Source of the DNA: a virus
DNA length: 22,083 nt
Reading direction: 5' to 3' (one strand)
IMG/VR virus record: IMGVR_UViG_3300046718_000570
Location: 1 to 22,083 of that record
Made by a program: the position numbers and the translations under genes. Below are positions 3,217 through 12,354 of this stretch, piece by piece. The notes beneath the pieces were generated by a model. The model saw nothing but the letters and a program-made list of their open reading frames with translations. It made no database searches and was not told the origin of the DNA. Position 1 is the first letter of the stretch. The number at the start of each line of letters is the position of its first letter.

Positions 3217-3423
3217 ATGCGCCTTCGCCAGTATCTTTCTGCCCACGATATCTCCATGGCGGCGTTCGCAGCGCGCATCGGCGTCAGCACGCAGGCGGTT
3301 CATCGGTATCTGACTGGCGACCGTCTGCCGCGTCCCGACGTGATGATGCGGATCAAGGAAGAGACGCGCGGCGCGGTGCAACCCAACGACTGGTTCCGTC
3401 CTCCTGGGGAGGCCGCCGCCTGA
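3217..3423 (+). CDS. cro: Cro-like HTH transcriptional regulator
   Basis: A 68-residue protein transcribed divergently from the repressor. It contains an HTH at about residues 12-35 (SMAAFAARIGVSTQAVHRYL) followed by GDRLPRPDVMMRI and a C-terminal PNDWF, the pattern of small Cro/YdaS-like phage regulators. There is no Shine-Dalgarno sequence before the ATG, and the PR start point predicted from TTGACA-17-GACAAT coincides with the start codon, so translation is probably leaderless. Expected to compete with the repressor for the operators and commit the phage to lytic growth. Confidence 0.78.
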   Translation: MRLRQYLSAHDISMAAFAARIGVSTQAVHRYLTGDRLPRPDVMMRIKEETRGAVQPNDWFRPPGEAAA

Positions 3424-3459: not shown

Positions 3460-3531
3460 ATGTACACACACAATGGCCTGCTCACACGCTTACCCTCGCT
3501 CGGCTCGTTCTGGCACGTTGGGATGGCGTAA
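3460..3531 (+). CDS. Possible 23-aa peptide with strong ribosome binding site
   Basis: An ATG with GGGAGGG placed ideally before it opens a 23-codon frame (MYTHNGLL ... FWHVGMA) that ends five bases before the GTG of the next gene. The ribosome binding site is the strongest in this neighbourhood, while the next gene has a poor one. It could be a real micropeptide, or a leader peptide that couples translation into the following GTG gene. No function can be assigned. Confidence 0.4.
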   Translation: MYTHNGLLTRLPSLGSFWHVGMA

Positions 3532-3536
3532 GCGTC

Positions 3537-3929
3537 GTGGCCGGCTCCACAGGAAAACTGTCAGACTGGACGGACCCAGCCATCATGCTGGTCCGCAAGC
3601 TGGTCGCAGCGCGGCGGCGCTGGGGCATTCCAGGTGCCATGGCCATTGCTGACGTGGCACCGGAACTTGGCATTAGCCCCTGGCGCGTGGAGACGCTCTT
3701 CTACCGCTACCGCATGTGTCTGATGCGCCCGGTGCTGCTGGCTGAGTGGAACCGGTTGCGCATTCGCGGCGCGCTGATGCTGCGGCAGGAAGCTGCGCGG
3801 CTGCGGCGGTTTGCCGATGAGCTGGACGCCGAGGCCGACGCGCTGGAGAGCGGCCAATCCCAATACCCACGGAGCACTGAATGCGCACCTGCGTCTGGCG
3901 ACGCTGCCTTGCGCGAGGCGGCCGAGTGA
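3537..3929 (+). CDS. Hypothetical HTH-like early protein, 130 aa
   Basis: GTG start, 130 residues. Residues about 15-60 (LVRKLVAARRRWG ... VAPELGISPWRVETLFYRYR) have the pattern of a helix-turn-helix that reads DNA through the helix after LGIS. A long Arg/Glu-rich coiled helix follows (RQEAARLRRFADELDAEADALE), and the tail is probably disordered. It resembles small phage proteins of alphaproteobacteria with an N-terminal HTH and a coiled tail, but no named family is recognised. It follows the 23-aa frame by five bases and may depend on it for translation. Confidence 0.65.
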   Translation: MAGSTGKLSDWTDPAIMLVRKLVAARRRWGIPGAMAIADVAPELGISPWRVETLFYRYRMCLMRPVLLAEWNRLRIRGALMLRQEAARLRRFADELDAEADALESGQSQYPRSTECAPASGDAALREAAE

Positions 3930-5009: not shown

Positions 5010-5557
5010 GCGGCTACACCATAGCGGCGATCCCCACGCTCTACCGTGGCCGGATGTACCGCAGTCGCCTGGAGGCGCGCTGGGCGGCGTTCTTCGATCG
5101 GCTCGGTTGGGCGTACGAGTACGAGCCGTTCGACCTTGGTGCGTGGTCTCCGGACTTTTTGCTGACGTCGCCCATGGAGGTGTTGGTTGAAGTCAAGCCG
5201 ATCGAGCACCTTGATAAGGAGGTGACGGCGAAGATGCTGGATGCCACGAACGGGGAGAATTTGCTGCTCACCAGGGTTGCTCCTGTTGATGTCAGTTCGT
5301 TTCTGGAGATTGGATGGTCGGCCGGCGTCAAGGGTGAGTTTAGTTGCGCTGCGATAGTTTGGGTACCGGACAAGAAGGTCCCCAGGCTTGTTGCGGATAT
5401 CACTGATCTTGCGAACTGCGATGAGGGGTATTGGCGGACGCTTTCTGGGGATGGCGGGCGGTTAGACGACTATCGTCGGATTTATCCGTATGCCTCCGCG
5501 ACCAAGGCCATGTGGGCGGACGCTTCCAACGCGGTTCAATGGGAGCCGAAGTCGTGA
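5006..5557 (+). CDS. PD-(D/E)XK endonuclease-like protein
   Basis: A 183-residue protein. After RMYRSRLEARWAAFFDRLG (E23 in the conserved SxLEARWA motif) come the metal-binding residues: D50 in WSPDFLL, then E62 and K64 in VLVEVKP. This is the E...PD...ExK arrangement of a compact phage PD-(D/E)XK nuclease. The C-terminal part (CDEGYWRTLSGDGGRL ... ATKAMWADASN) is a helical tail common to this type. The frame is open much further upstream, but ATG 5006 overlaps the previous stop and begins exactly at the conserved domain. It may act in genome processing or host DNA degradation. Confidence 0.78.
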   Translation: MSGYTIAAIPTLYRGRMYRSRLEARWAAFFDRLGWAYEYEPFDLGAWSPDFLLTSPMEVLVEVKPIEHLDKEVTAKMLDATNGENLLLTRVAPVDVSSFLEIGWSAGVKGEFSCAAIVWVPDKKVPRLVADITDLANCDEGYWRTLSGDGGRLDDYRRIYPYASATKAMWADASNAVQWEPKS

Positions 5558-6492
5558 GCGCGCCGGCATTTGCGTGGGCATTGGAGCGAGGTTGCGCTTT
5601 GCGCTTATCGCCATCTCAGCGTCTGGTGCTGATCTATCTCGCTGACAAGGCGAACGGCGGTCGGGTGTGCTGGCCAGGTCAGGAGACAATTGTGAGGTTC
5701 ACCGGTCTGGCATTGCGGACGGTCCGGTCGGTGATCCACGAACTGTCAAAGTTACAACTAATACGTGTAGAGGCAACCGCAGGGTACGTCACCAAATACC
5801 ACATTATGCGTGCTGACACCCCGGCAGATGGTAACGGGGTAGACCACAATCACCCAGGCAAATCGTCACATGGTACCCAGGCAAATGGTAACAGGGTGCC
5901 CCGGCAAAATGTCTCTACCCACCCCGGCAAACGACGACCGGAACCCCGAGACATTACGACCGTAACCCCGGCAAAATGTCCCCCCGAACCTTCTATTAAC
6001 CAAGAAGAGAACCTTAAGACGCGCACACACGTGCGCGAAGGGGAAGTCCAAGATCTCAATCCTGGAAAACAAGCAAGCCAGGAGGCCCCGCCAAAAGCGC
6101 CCACAATCGGCACAACCGAAGATTGTAGCCAGAGCTACATCCCCGCAGGCACCAGAACCGAACCGGAAGACTTCCAAGCTTTCCTGGCAACCCGGCGCCA
6201 ACAGCGGGACGCCGCCGACCCAGAGCCGGCTGCTGACGCCATCGCCGTCAAGCGGGCCGTCGCCGCCACGATCTACTCGCTGAAAAAATACGCGCAGGCT
6301 GAAGGCGTCGCGCCCGCCCGGTCCCGTGATGAGCAGATTGACCAAGTGCTGCACGGCGAAGTCTTGGAGCCAATCAGGCGCGGCCCCGTCGATCCCGTCC
6401 GAACCCCAGAGCAGCAATATGCCGAGCTGCTCGGTGTCTCGCTCGCAGAAGCCACGATCGCCCTAGGCCGCACAATCGAGGCCAACGCCTGA
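5554..6492 (+). CDS. HTH replication-initiator-like protein carrying the putative origin
   Basis: From the GTG at 5554 (GTGA overlap with the nuclease stop; GGGAG eight bases upstream) the protein has 312 residues. Residues about 1-85 form a helix-turn-helix_36-type winged helix (LSPSQRLVLIYLADKAN ... CWPGQETIVRFTGLALRTVRSVIHEL), as in phage O-like initiators. The central 90 residues are low-complexity because this stretch of DNA holds an iteron array. The C-terminal 90 residues are helical (ADAIAVKRAVAATIYSLKKYA) and may bind a helicase or loader. An upstream in-frame ATG at 5539 is a weaker alternative. The gene order (initiator, then antiterminator) resembles the lambda O region. Confidence 0.72.
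   Translation: MSAPAFAWALERGCALRLSPSQRLVLIYLADKANGGRVCWPGQETIVRFTGLALRTVRSVIHELSKLQLIRVEATAGYVTKYHIMRADTPADGNGVDHNHPGKSSHGTQANGNRVPRQNVSTHPGKRRPEPRDITTVTPAKCPPEPSINQEENLKTRTHVREGEVQDLNPGKQASQEAPPKAPTIGTTEDCSQSYIPAGTRTEPEDFQAFLATRRQQRDAADPEPAADAIAVKRAVAATIYSLKKYAQAEGVAPARSRDEQIDQVLHGEVLEPIRRGPVDPVRTPEQQYAELLGVSLAEATIALGRTIEANA
5819..5979. repeat. Iteron array, putative phage replication origin
   Basis: Six copies of a short element with the core CCC(C/A)GGCA(A/G)A, often followed by TGGTAAC or ATGTC. The GGCA cores start at 5823, 5857, 5880, 5903, 5926 and 5970. Copies two to five are spaced exactly 23 bp, about two helical turns, and a degenerate copy lies in the last gap near 5948. As 23 is not a multiple of three, the repeats are read in different frames of the host gene, so they are conserved as DNA and not as protein. 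A more AT-rich stretch (5985-6020) follows. Analogous to the lambda O-gene origin. Confidence 0.7.
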
Positions 6493-7070
6493 TGCCGCTT
6501 GACGCCAGCCACCCACAGTGCGTAGCTACACCACCTGCCGCGGCCGACCCGGCGTGCATTCGCGTCCGCTGGGCCGTGCTCGCCACCTACCCGCAAGCCG
6601 AAGCCTGGGCCGAACAGAACCTCCGCCAACGCGGCTACATCCCGTTCCTCCCGCGCTATCTCGCCAAGGTCCGGGATCGATCGGTGCCAACCATCACCCG
6701 ATTGGTGGAACGCCCACTGTTCGCCGGTTACATCTTCTGCCAACACAACCCACCCGATCCATGGCGCCCAATCCGCTACTGCCCAGGCATCCGCGCAAAC
6801 CTCATCGGAGGCAAAGAAGTGCAGTATGCCCGTCCGGGCGCTGTGGAGGCCGTACAGGCCGCTCAGGCGTTGGCCGCTACCCAACAGCGGAAAGAGGCGC
6901 AATGGGCATCAGGCGACGCTGTGGCGCCTCGCGTGGGGCCGTTCAGCGGGCTGCCAGGGGTCGTGCTCGCAGTCCAGGAGGAAAACGCGGTGGTCGGCAT
7001 CCTGTTCCTCGGACAACTCCGCGAAGTCGTCTACCCGTTCGACGCACTCACCCCACGGGATGACTTCTAG
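6492..7070 (+). CDS. NusG/RfaH-like transcription antitermination protein
   Basis: A 192-residue protein. An NGN domain spans about residues 25-120 (WAVLATYPQAEAWAEQNLRQ, GYIPFLP, RLVERPLFAGYIFCQ, ANLIGG), which matches the NusG/RfaH N-terminal fold that binds the RNA polymerase clamp. A KOW-type domain follows at about residues 140-190 (GDAVAPRVGPFSGLPGVVLAV ... LREVVYPFDALTP). The ATG overlaps the initiator stop (TGATG). Known role of the family: pausing control and operon-specific antitermination. Placed as the last gene of the rightward early operon, it is a good candidate for the late-gene activator. Confidence 0.85.
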   Translation: MPLDASHPQCVATPPAAADPACIRVRWAVLATYPQAEAWAEQNLRQRGYIPFLPRYLAKVRDRSVPTITRLVERPLFAGYIFCQHNPPDPWRPIRYCPGIRANLIGGKEVQYARPGAVEAVQAAQALAATQQRKEAQWASGDAVAPRVGPFSGLPGVVLAVQEENAVVGILFLGQLREVVYPFDALTPRDDF

Positions 7071-9497: not shown

Positions 9498-9668
9498 ATG
9501 AGCCTGATCGTGCTGATCCTGATCGTGTTGCTGCTGTTTGGCGGCCTGGGTGGCGGGTATTACGGCTATCGTGGGGGCTACTACGGGTATGGGGGTTATG
9601 GCGGGATCGGCTTCATCGTGGTGCTGTTGGTGCTGCTGATTCTGTTCGGCGGCGGCCGCATCTGGTGA
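9498..9668 (+). CDS. Gly/Tyr-rich small membrane protein (DUF3309-like), 56 aa
   Basis: A 56-residue protein with two hydrophobic segments (LIVLILIVLLLFGG and IGFIVVLLVLLILFGG) joined by a Gly/Tyr repeat (YYGYRGGYYGYGGYGG). The size and pattern resemble DUF3309-type small proteins of alpha- and betaproteobacteria, function unknown. The predicted product is a two-pass membrane hairpin. Its stop overlaps the GTG of the methyltransferase (GTGA). The upstream interval carries a TATATA-rich inverted repeat that may belong to its promoter. Confidence 0.6.
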   Translation: MSLIVLILIVLLLFGGLGGGYYGYRGGYYGYGGYGGIGFIVVLLVLLILFGGGRIW

Positions 9669-10414
9669 TCCGGCTACTGCTAGGCGACTGCCGTGAGATC
9701 ATGGAGAACGAAGGGCCGTTCGACCTGATCGTGGCAGACCCTCCGTATGGCGACACTTCCCTTGGCTGGGACCGCGCGGTTGAGGGATGGCTGCACGTGG
9801 CATACCACCGCCTCAAGCCCTCCGGCAGCGTCTGGATGTTTGGGTCGCTGCGATCGCTAATGTCGATCGGGCACGCGGTGGCTGAGGCGGGCTTCCGTTA
9901 CGCTCAGGATATCGTGTGGGAGAAGCACAACGGGAGCGGCCTACACGCCGATCGGTTCAAGCGGGTGCATGAGCACGTCGTGCAGTTCTATCGCGCCAAC
10001 GTTGCTTGGTCTCAGGTTTGGAATGAGGTGCAGACCACCGCCGACGCCACAGCCAGGACTGTGCGGCGCAAGAGCACGCCCGCCCTTCACATGGGACGCC
10101 GTGCGAAATCCTCCTACCAGTCGGTCGACGGTGGACCGCGCATTATGCGCTCTGTCATCGCCATCCCGAGTTGCCACGGACACGCTATCCACCCAACCGA
10201 GAAGCCGGTTGACCTACTGCGCATCCTTGTGCGCACGAGTTGTCCGCCGGAAGGGCTTGTAGGCGACTTCTTTGCTGGCTCTGGCTCGCTGGCTGAAGCA
10301 TGCCAAGCAGAGGGACGGCGATATCTTGGATGCGACACTGACGCGGCTATGGTCGAGAAGGCGCGGCGCCGTAGTCTGTTCGTTCTGGCGCCCTTCCCGG
10401 AGGCTGCGGAGTGA
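9665..10414 (+). CDS. Site-specific DNA methyltransferase (N6-adenine/N4-cytosine, beta class)
   Basis: A 249-residue protein with the catalytic motif IV DPPY (D25-Y28) near the N-terminus and the AdoMet-binding motif I (DFFAGSG, D201-G207) near the C-terminus. HPTEKP (176-181) is the usual motif ahead of it. The order IV then I defines the beta group (CcrM/HinfI-like), and DPPY favours N6-adenine methylation. No restriction partner is encoded nearby, so it is an orphan enzyme. Likely role: protecting phage DNA from host restriction, or regulation. The GTG start overlaps the upstream stop. Confidence 0.88.
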   Translation: MIRLLLGDCREIMENEGPFDLIVADPPYGDTSLGWDRAVEGWLHVAYHRLKPSGSVWMFGSLRSLMSIGHAVAEAGFRYAQDIVWEKHNGSGLHADRFKRVHEHVVQFYRANVAWSQVWNEVQTTADATARTVRRKSTPALHMGRRAKSSYQSVDGGPRIMRSVIAIPSCHGHAIHPTEKPVDLLRILVRTSCPPEGLVGDFFAGSGSLAEACQAEGRRYLGCDTDAAMVEKARRRSLFVLAPFPEAAE

Positions 10415-10588: not shown

Positions 10589-11077
10589 ATGCCGACTTTT
10601 CGCGTGACGGGTGGGGCTTTGACGCTGGATAGCGCTGGGCTCAATTACCCGAGCAATGAGTTACCTGGGAGTGGGCAGATCGATAATTCTCTGCCTGGGG
10701 GTGTTCCGCCGATTGGCTCCACGTTGCCGGAGCCGCCGCCTGGTATTTGGCCACCTCCGAGCTTCAATCACCCGTGGGCGCCCATCCCAGGCGTTGGGGG
10801 AGAGCGCCCGGGCCATGATCTACCGACGCCGCCATCCGGCACGTTGCCAGTGCGGCCTCCGGTGGTTCCGGGTCATGATCTGCCGGCGGTACCGGGGACG
10901 ATTTGGCCCCCGGTCAATCAGCACCCGCCGCGGGACGGCAAGTTCTGGGTGGTAGCGGGGATCCCTGGCACGGGGTGGCGCTACATTCTGGTGGACGTCA
11001 CCCAGATCATTGGGAAGCCCGACGGCAAGCCGCCCGAAACCGTACAGCCGCCTCCGACGCCGGCACTAAAGGGCTGA
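10589..11077 (+). CDS. Pro-rich hypothetical protein with PGHDLP repeats, 162 aa
   Basis: A 162-residue protein rich in Pro and Gly. The centre is repetitive: PGHDLP occurs twice, with IWPP elements and PPPSGTLP-like linkers. A small folded C-terminal part follows (DGKFWVVAGIPGTGWRYILVDV), probably a beta hairpin pair. It resembles low-complexity proteins found beside packaging genes in alphaproteobacterial phages. A structural or decoration role is possible but is a guess. GGAG lies nine bases before the ATG. Confidence 0.62.
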   Translation: MPTFRVTGGALTLDSAGLNYPSNELPGSGQIDNSLPGGVPPIGSTLPEPPPGIWPPPSFNHPWAPIPGVGGERPGHDLPTPPSGTLPVRPPVVPGHDLPAVPGTIWPPVNQHPPRDGKFWVVAGIPGTGWRYILVDVTQIIGKPDGKPPETVQPPPTPALKG

Positions 11078-12020: not shown

Positions 12021-12054
12021 GCATAGCACCACCCCAATCATGGAGGCCAGCGGC

Positions 12055-12354
12055 ATGCCAGCAACCATGAAACACGTCATATCCGTTCCCTGGACGGACG
12101 AGGAGCGCACCACGCTGCGGCAGATGTGGGAGAACGGCATGGGCGTGACGCTGCTCGGGCGCATGCTGGGGCGGTCGAAGTACAGCGTGCGCTCCGAGAT
12201 CGAGACGCTGAAGCTGGGGCCGCGTGGCAGCGTGGTGGCGCCGCCAGAGCGCCCGCCGGGTCGGGTGGTGCAGGCACGGGCACGGCCTCAGCCACTGCGA
12301 CCCGGCGCGCGCACGCTGCCGCCGCTGCCGAGTGAGATGCATGCCGATGAGTGA
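12055..12354 (+). CDS. GcrA/Myb-like HTH DNA-binding protein, 99 aa
   Basis: The start at 12055 is chosen because GGAGG lies eight bases before it; an ATG at 12040 lies upstream of that site. Residues about 10-55 (VPWTDEERTTLRQMWENG, LLGRMLGRSKYSVRSEIETL) match the homeodomain-like HTH of GcrA-type regulators (W-[ST]-x-E-E...L...W..G...I...LGRSx.AV). The tail is a Pro/Arg-rich disordered segment. It may be a regulator, or the site-recognition subunit of the terminase given its place just upstream of terL. Confidence 0.68.
   Translation: MPATMKHVISVPWTDEERTTLRQMWENGMGVTLLGRMLGRSKYSVRSEIETLKLGPRGSVVAPPERPPGRVVQARARPQPLRPGARTLPPLPSEMHADE

Follow-up and report, generated by a model that had tools for sequence, protein, structure and literature searches.

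The specificity of initiators for their own origins has been known for decades in lambdoid phages. In phage lambda, the origin (ori-lambda) is located inside gene O and consists of four 18-bp hyphenated palindromes and an AT-rich tract, each iteron being bound by a dimer of the O protein (PMC6022878, PMC7466680). In phages P22 and L, gene 18 carries different in-gene repeats, and each protein is proposed to bind its own iterons (PMC8022706); repeats in the O gene of Pseudomonas phage MD8 have also been mentioned (PMC8508860). Cognate iterons inside the initiator gene are thus already established for lambda and proposed for P22, L and MD8 (PMC8022706, PMC8508860), so that the kind of origin considered below is already known. 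The lineage of the window analysed here is apparently undescribed, and its iteron is new.

The window, i.e. the whole stretch of DNA that was analysed, is an IMG/VR viral record of 22,083 bases and an incomplete contig (22 kb), in which phage head genes were found (a SU10-type portal using Pfam, a major head protein using PHROG). The O-like replication initiator gene (5554..6492, + strand) has a GTG start and encodes 312 aa. It is directly followed on its 3' side by a NusG-like antiterminator gene (6492..7070, + strand; PF02357, E 1.7e-8; PHROG transcription antiterminator), which is considered as context outside the origin; proteins similar to this NusG-like product are also encoded downstream of the initiator in relatives, including L005, L007 and L009. 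Of the proteins of the window that were scanned using Pfam and PHROG, none was recognisable as a P-like loader or DnaB. A GcrA-like protein (12040-12354; PF07750, E 7e-5, just under the cut-off) and an N6/N4 DNA methyltransferase (9665-10414) are encoded elsewhere in the window, and hint at a possible CcrM/GcrA-like pair and at an alphaproteobacterial host.

The only Pfam match of the initiator up to E 0.1 was HTH_36 (PF13730, residues 16-70, E 1e-12), and the best PHROG matches were a replication initiation protein (phrog_1032, 5.6e-19) and an O-like family (phrog_391, 4.3e-15); the protein thus combines the N-terminal HTH_36 domain and the replication-initiation matches of an HTH_36 phage initiator. 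It did not match Phage_rep_O (PF04492), which lambda O matches at E 5.7e-36, nor any plasmid Rep family in Pfam up to E 0.1. An AlphaFold model, built from a nine-sequence alignment, predicts a confident winged helix (residues 1-88), a disordered linker encoded by the iterons (residues ~90-200, pLDDT mostly <50) and a separate helical C-terminal part, model confidence being low for the C-terminal half. The recognition helix (residues 54-66, 5713..5751, + strand) was delimited using DSSP on this model, and its predicted specificity residues are Arg55 (codon 5716-5718, + strand) and Arg58 (codon 5725-5727, + strand). A sequence search of the PDB gave no convincing relative of the window protein or of lambda O, and no solved structure of a protein similar in sequence to the latter. 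Fold searches returned generic winged helices only, with no initiator standing out.

Six cores of the form CCC(C/A)GGCA(A/G)A are located on the + strand of the initiator gene, at 5819, 5853, 5876, 5899, 5922 and 5966, with spacings of 34, 23, 23, 23 and 44 bp. The six cores of the preliminary description, and the exact 23-bp spacing of the four middle copies, are borne out by these positions. The array runs further than the extent given there (5819-5979), to ~5987, and the origin-like block to 6037. The 44-bp gap corresponds to 22 + 22 bp by way of a degenerate copy at ~5944 (ACCCCGAGACATTACGACCGTA, family D3, 5943..5964, + strand). The pattern is found seven times in the whole window (the six copies in the gene and an isolated seventh at 10690, on the minus strand), against 0.31 expected, and seven copies were reached in 0 of 100 dinucleotide shuffles. 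Selection acts on the DNA and not on the peptide, as the preliminary description had argued from the different frames of the repeats: the cores occur in all three reading frames, where they encode peptides of the types TPA(D/N), PGK and PRQN, and in 20,000 synonymous-codon shuffles of the gene (mean 0.83 copies, maximum 5) six copies were never reached. The repeats therefore do not simply follow from the encoded amino acids, and since the copies lie in all three frames, it is the DNA itself that is conserved.

Three features go beyond that description, namely the right half of the repeated unit, a tract 3' of the array and a hairpin. The full unit is a 23-bp hyphenated palindrome (9-5-9) of the form ACCCCGGCA-N5-TGCCGGGGT, with consensus ACCCCGGCA-AATGG-TGCCGGGGT, which is best preserved in the first copies, the downstream copies being half-sites. 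On the + strand, iteron 1 (5818..5840) is a near-complete 23-bp dyad, ACCCCGGCA-GATGG-TAACGGGGT; iteron 2 (5852..5874) reads ACCCAGGCA-AATCG-TCACATGGT and iteron 3 (5875..5897) ACCCAGGCA-AATGG-TAACAGGGT; and iterons 4 (5898..5920), 5 (5921..5943) and 6 (5965..5987) show the left half-sites GCCCCGGCAAAATGT, ACCCCGGCAAAC and ACCCCGGCAAAATGTC, respectively. When the first iterons of 8 genes were taken together, their halves matched at 56 of 72 dyad positions (random right halves: mean 20, maximum 39). The dyad is kept in L013, where the left half ACCCCTGCA and a right half TGCAGGGGT carry matching changes on opposite sides (T6/A18). Iterons of proteins with Gln58 mostly show no dyad with a 5-nt spacing.

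The last iteron is followed by an AT-richer tract (GAACCTTCTATTAACCAAGAAGAGAACCTTAAGA, 5986..6019, + strand), a candidate unwinding element on the basis of its base composition, which is kept in relatives. It is 57% AT over 40 nt versus 40% for the gene and 80% for the lambda tract, and in several relatives other parts of the gene exceed the corresponding tract in AT content; repeated (A/G)A(A/C)CC words occur within the segment. A GC inverted repeat, CGCGCAC-ACAC-GTGCGCG (6020..6037, + strand), lies ~55 nt downstream of the point where the last iteron begins. Eleven of 12 family members have one, with arms that differ and compensate (e.g. GGCGCGC-GA-GCGCGCC, CGCGCG-TAGG-CGCGCG and CGCGCGT-ATAC-ACGCGCG). 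Arm lengths taken singly are mildly unusual, being reached in 2-20% of shuffles, and the hairpin was therefore counted as conserved on its constant position and compensating changes rather than on arm length.

Scans of viral contigs retrieved relatives at ~40-56% identity to the initiator. Arrays are located in the same part of their genes, with up to nine copies in mixed frames and spacings mostly of 22-24 and 33-34 bp; related iterons occupy the same gene position in ten independent viral contigs, and repeats occur in the same gene part of more than 100 related initiators. The core CCCCGGCAAA was confined to the initiator gene in the ten contigs (4-43 kb) that were searched whole, among which the L004 contig holds only the 3' part of the gene, with no core there. 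In addition, 79 viral-contig loci related to the O gene of phage phi2 were fetched, and in nearly all non-redundant loci the in-gene repeat count exceeded the mean of synonymous shuffles, and usually their maximum. Among distant relatives, genes annotated as replication O adjoin P-like loaders or DnaB. The only relative found in one scan of genome contigs was a distant one in a planctomycete MAG (L010), which has 22-bp in-gene repeats of its own in the same place (3308-3397; AGTCAAACGGGA...), unrelated to the window iteron.

Several variations were observed among these loci. In L011 (2432-3001), the gene immediately preceding the O-like initiator codes for a DnaA domain IV that stands alone (PF08299, E 5e-21), and the ORF in L012 looks nearly identical; in L005 (~3308) and L014 (~3231), iterons 1 and 2 are separated by a 52-bp gap, which contains the DnaA-box-like words TTGTCCACA and ATATCCACA. 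The C-terminal part of the L006 initiator (3508-3912) is weakly DnaT-like (PF17948, E 0.006, under the cut-off) and unrelated to the C-termini of other members, so that a helicase-contacting C-terminal module seems, from these sequences, to be swapped among members. In Pseudomonas-type arrays (L017, L018, L020, and L030 onward), the spacing shifts reproducibly along the array from 17 bp to ~22 bp. Initiators with iterons are also encoded by three circular Pseudomonas/Massilia "plasmids" of 44-87 kb, L189 (NZ_CP124637, in which DnaB adjoins the initiator), L190 (CP137442) and L191 (NZ_CP024609), which may be phage-plasmids using this origin type.

As was first apparent when recognition helices were aligned, the half-site base at position 6 (CCCC[6]GCA) varies with helix residue 58: Arg goes with G, Gln or His with C, and Ile or Met with T. 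Calls of base 6 were made in a consensus register that ignores base 6, an automatic caller based on the dyad only having been discarded as unreliable, above all for Gln58 iterons. The sample comprised 106 callable genes, and roughly 470 further relatives were counted beyond it. Concordance with the rule was observed in 100 of 106 callable genes (Gln-C 52, Arg-G 26, Ile-T 12, His-C 10). The Arg-G, Gln-C and Ile-T rule was written before a later set was fetched (using an alignment of Arg58 proteins, together with plasmid and phage records), and 49 of the 54 genes of that set were concordant (label shuffles: mean 18.7, never above 34), the His-C pairing having first appeared there and hence not being a prior prediction. 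Column 58 was the best predictor of base 6 among all alignment columns; columns 93, 96 and 99, which ranked next, correspond to codons within the iteron array, so that they are no evidence for recognition, and the next independent column, 62, was weaker. The protein is tied to the DNA by this dependence of base 6 on its own recognition helix.

Among the discordant genes, L151, L165, L176 and L164 have dyads that read AGTCCG, i.e. T6, and look like register slips, the dyads giving Ile/Met-T when read from the sequence. The dyad of a fifth, L200, reads CCGGCA, i.e. G6. A genuine exception is L022 (3265-3425), in which Arg58 is accompanied by Asn55 and base 6 is C. Its helix is KNNTVR and its iteron ACCCCCGCA-AACGG-GACGGGGGT, with an asymmetric dyad. 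In a phylogenetic tree built without the recognition helix, placement in a single clade was rejected for the Arg58 rows (AU p 0.0004) and for the Ile58 rows (AU p 0.003), so that at least two lineages acquired or retained each pairing; among the Arg58 rows, the 19 of Pseudomonas type are compatible with one clade (AU p 0.53).

The neighbouring bases also vary with the helix. Proteins with Thr55 (GRTAVI) have CCG instead of GCA at bases 7-9, and proteins with Ser55 have CCG or CCA, which suggests that residue 55 sets bases 7-9. Residues 55 and 58 (i, i+3) would lie on the same face of the helix, towards the DNA. Pairing of Arg with G, and of a hydrophobic residue with T, is to be expected on chemical grounds. 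It is likely that HTH_36 phage initiators follow a simple code, under which residue 58 dictates base 6 (Arg-G, Gln/His-C, Ile/Met-T) and residue 55 does so for bases 7-9 (Arg-GCA; Thr or Ser-CCG/CCA), the residues and bases changing together. Because protein and origin are held in one gene, such a code would change in both at once, and the origin sequence and compatibility groups of uncharacterised phages would then be predictable from the protein.

The segment from 5818 to ~6037 is very probably a lambda-type phage replication origin located in the gene of its own initiator. This was the proposal of the preliminary description, which is supported by the HTH_36 domain, the O-like PHROGs, the ori-lambda layout, the repeats in more than 100 relatives and the covariation of base 6 with the helix. 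The initiator-like N-terminal winged helix that it had read from the sequence agrees with the HTH_36 and replication-initiation PHROG matches, and its comparison with lambda O was apt, since the order of winged helix, in-gene dyad iterons, AT-richer tract and inverted repeat, with a disordered linker, is that of ori-lambda. In the proposed mechanism, the winged-helix domain (residues 1-88) would bind the palindromic 23-bp iterons, most probably in dimeric form; in each half-site, Arg58 of the recognition helix would read base 6, and Arg55 base 7. At a distance of 22-23 bp, or some two turns of the DNA helix, several such bound dimers would be in phase and form an O-some-like complex, which would strain and open the AT-richer tract 5986-6019, and the C-terminal part would then recruit the helicase or its loader to what would be an active origin. 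Iterons can be tolerated inside the gene if the linker that they encode is disordered, as predicted, and its sequence free to vary.

Points weighing against an origin are the tract with 57% AT versus 80% in lambda, the absence of a recognised loader or DnaB, the partial contig, the L022 exception and the GC skew. The skew had been named in the preliminary description as a check: it does change sign near the gene, at ~6 kb, but from + to -, opposite to the usual origin signature and hence not used, on what is a 22-kb fragment. The array could instead be an operator or another regulatory element (autorepression, antitermination, incompatibility) bound by the HTH protein. The winged helix is indeed generic, with transcription regulators (PerR, Fur, CRP) as its closest structures, and the gene directly downstream is a NusG-like antiterminator. 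However, the array begins ~260 bp after the start codon, in the coding region, with no iterons upstream of the gene; the best PHROG matches are replication initiators, relatives adjoin P-like loaders or DnaB, and a conserved tract and a conserved hairpin come after the array in an ori-lambda-like layout, which makes a purely regulatory array unlikely.

Binding of the repeats by a host factor or another phage factor (e.g. DnaA or IHF), instead of the encoded winged helix, would be in line with the DnaA domain-IV gene beside the initiator in L011 and L012 and with the DnaA-box-like words between iterons 1 and 2 in L005 and L014. The repeats are nevertheless unlike DnaA boxes, and in different lineages base 6 changes along with residue 58 of the protein encoded in cis, so that such a factor is considered as very improbable. 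That the repeats are a protein feature, i.e. a Pro/Gly-rich low-complexity linker with no function in the DNA, is hardly credible: they do encode a disordered linker, but one DNA word is read in three frames into different peptides, none of the 20,000 synonymous shuffles reached six copies, and base 6 follows the recognition helix.

A probable origin is thereby located for an uncultivated phage lineage, and in-gene origins appear to be common well beyond the relatives of lambda. The part most worth testing is the residue-base rule, for which no precedent was found in the open literature (subscription papers being outside this scope); the pairing of residue 58 and base 6 would give a concrete account of why phage initiators work only on their own origin and, if true, would make the origin type readable from the protein sequence.

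Iteron plasmid origins (RepE/TrfA/Pi type) have direct repeats of 17-23 bp in phase beside an AT-rich element, with the iterons outside the rep gene and Rep proteins of another family. The window shares with them the in-phase direct repeats beside an AT-rich(er) element, and differs by iterons inside the initiator gene and a protein with no plasmid Rep match in Pfam. With gene 18 of P22 and L, it has in common that the initiator gene contains the cognate iterons, whereas protein and iteron sequences differ and the available part of that source contains no residue-base rule. The O-like genes of phi2, MD8 and PotUPM1 likewise have in-gene repeats (ACCCCCGCA) after a winged helix, which is also of the HTH_36 type in phi2 O, and an AACC-rich segment after the array; unlike the window, they have C6 with Gln58 instead of G6 with Arg58 and a spacing of 17 and then 21-23 bp, and phi2 and MD8 have a P-like loader downstream. 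Compared with ori-lambda, the iteron sequences are unrelated, the domain is HTH_36 instead of Phage_rep_O, the tract is less AT-rich and directly followed by a GC hairpin, and the adjoining gene is NusG-like and not a P-like loader or DnaB, the presence of which is a trait of lambda and not essential to the origin type. In lambda, taken as a control with its annotated iterons, spacings are 20, 24 and 23 bp, each iteron contains a dyad, and an 80% AT tract follows the last one. Both loci have tandem iterons inside the coding sequence of the cognate initiator, right after its N-terminal DNA-binding domain, with dyad symmetry (as hyphenated inverted repeats in the first iterons of the window), a spacing of 20-24 bp, a flexible linker and an AT-richer tract on the 3' side, in the same order of elements.
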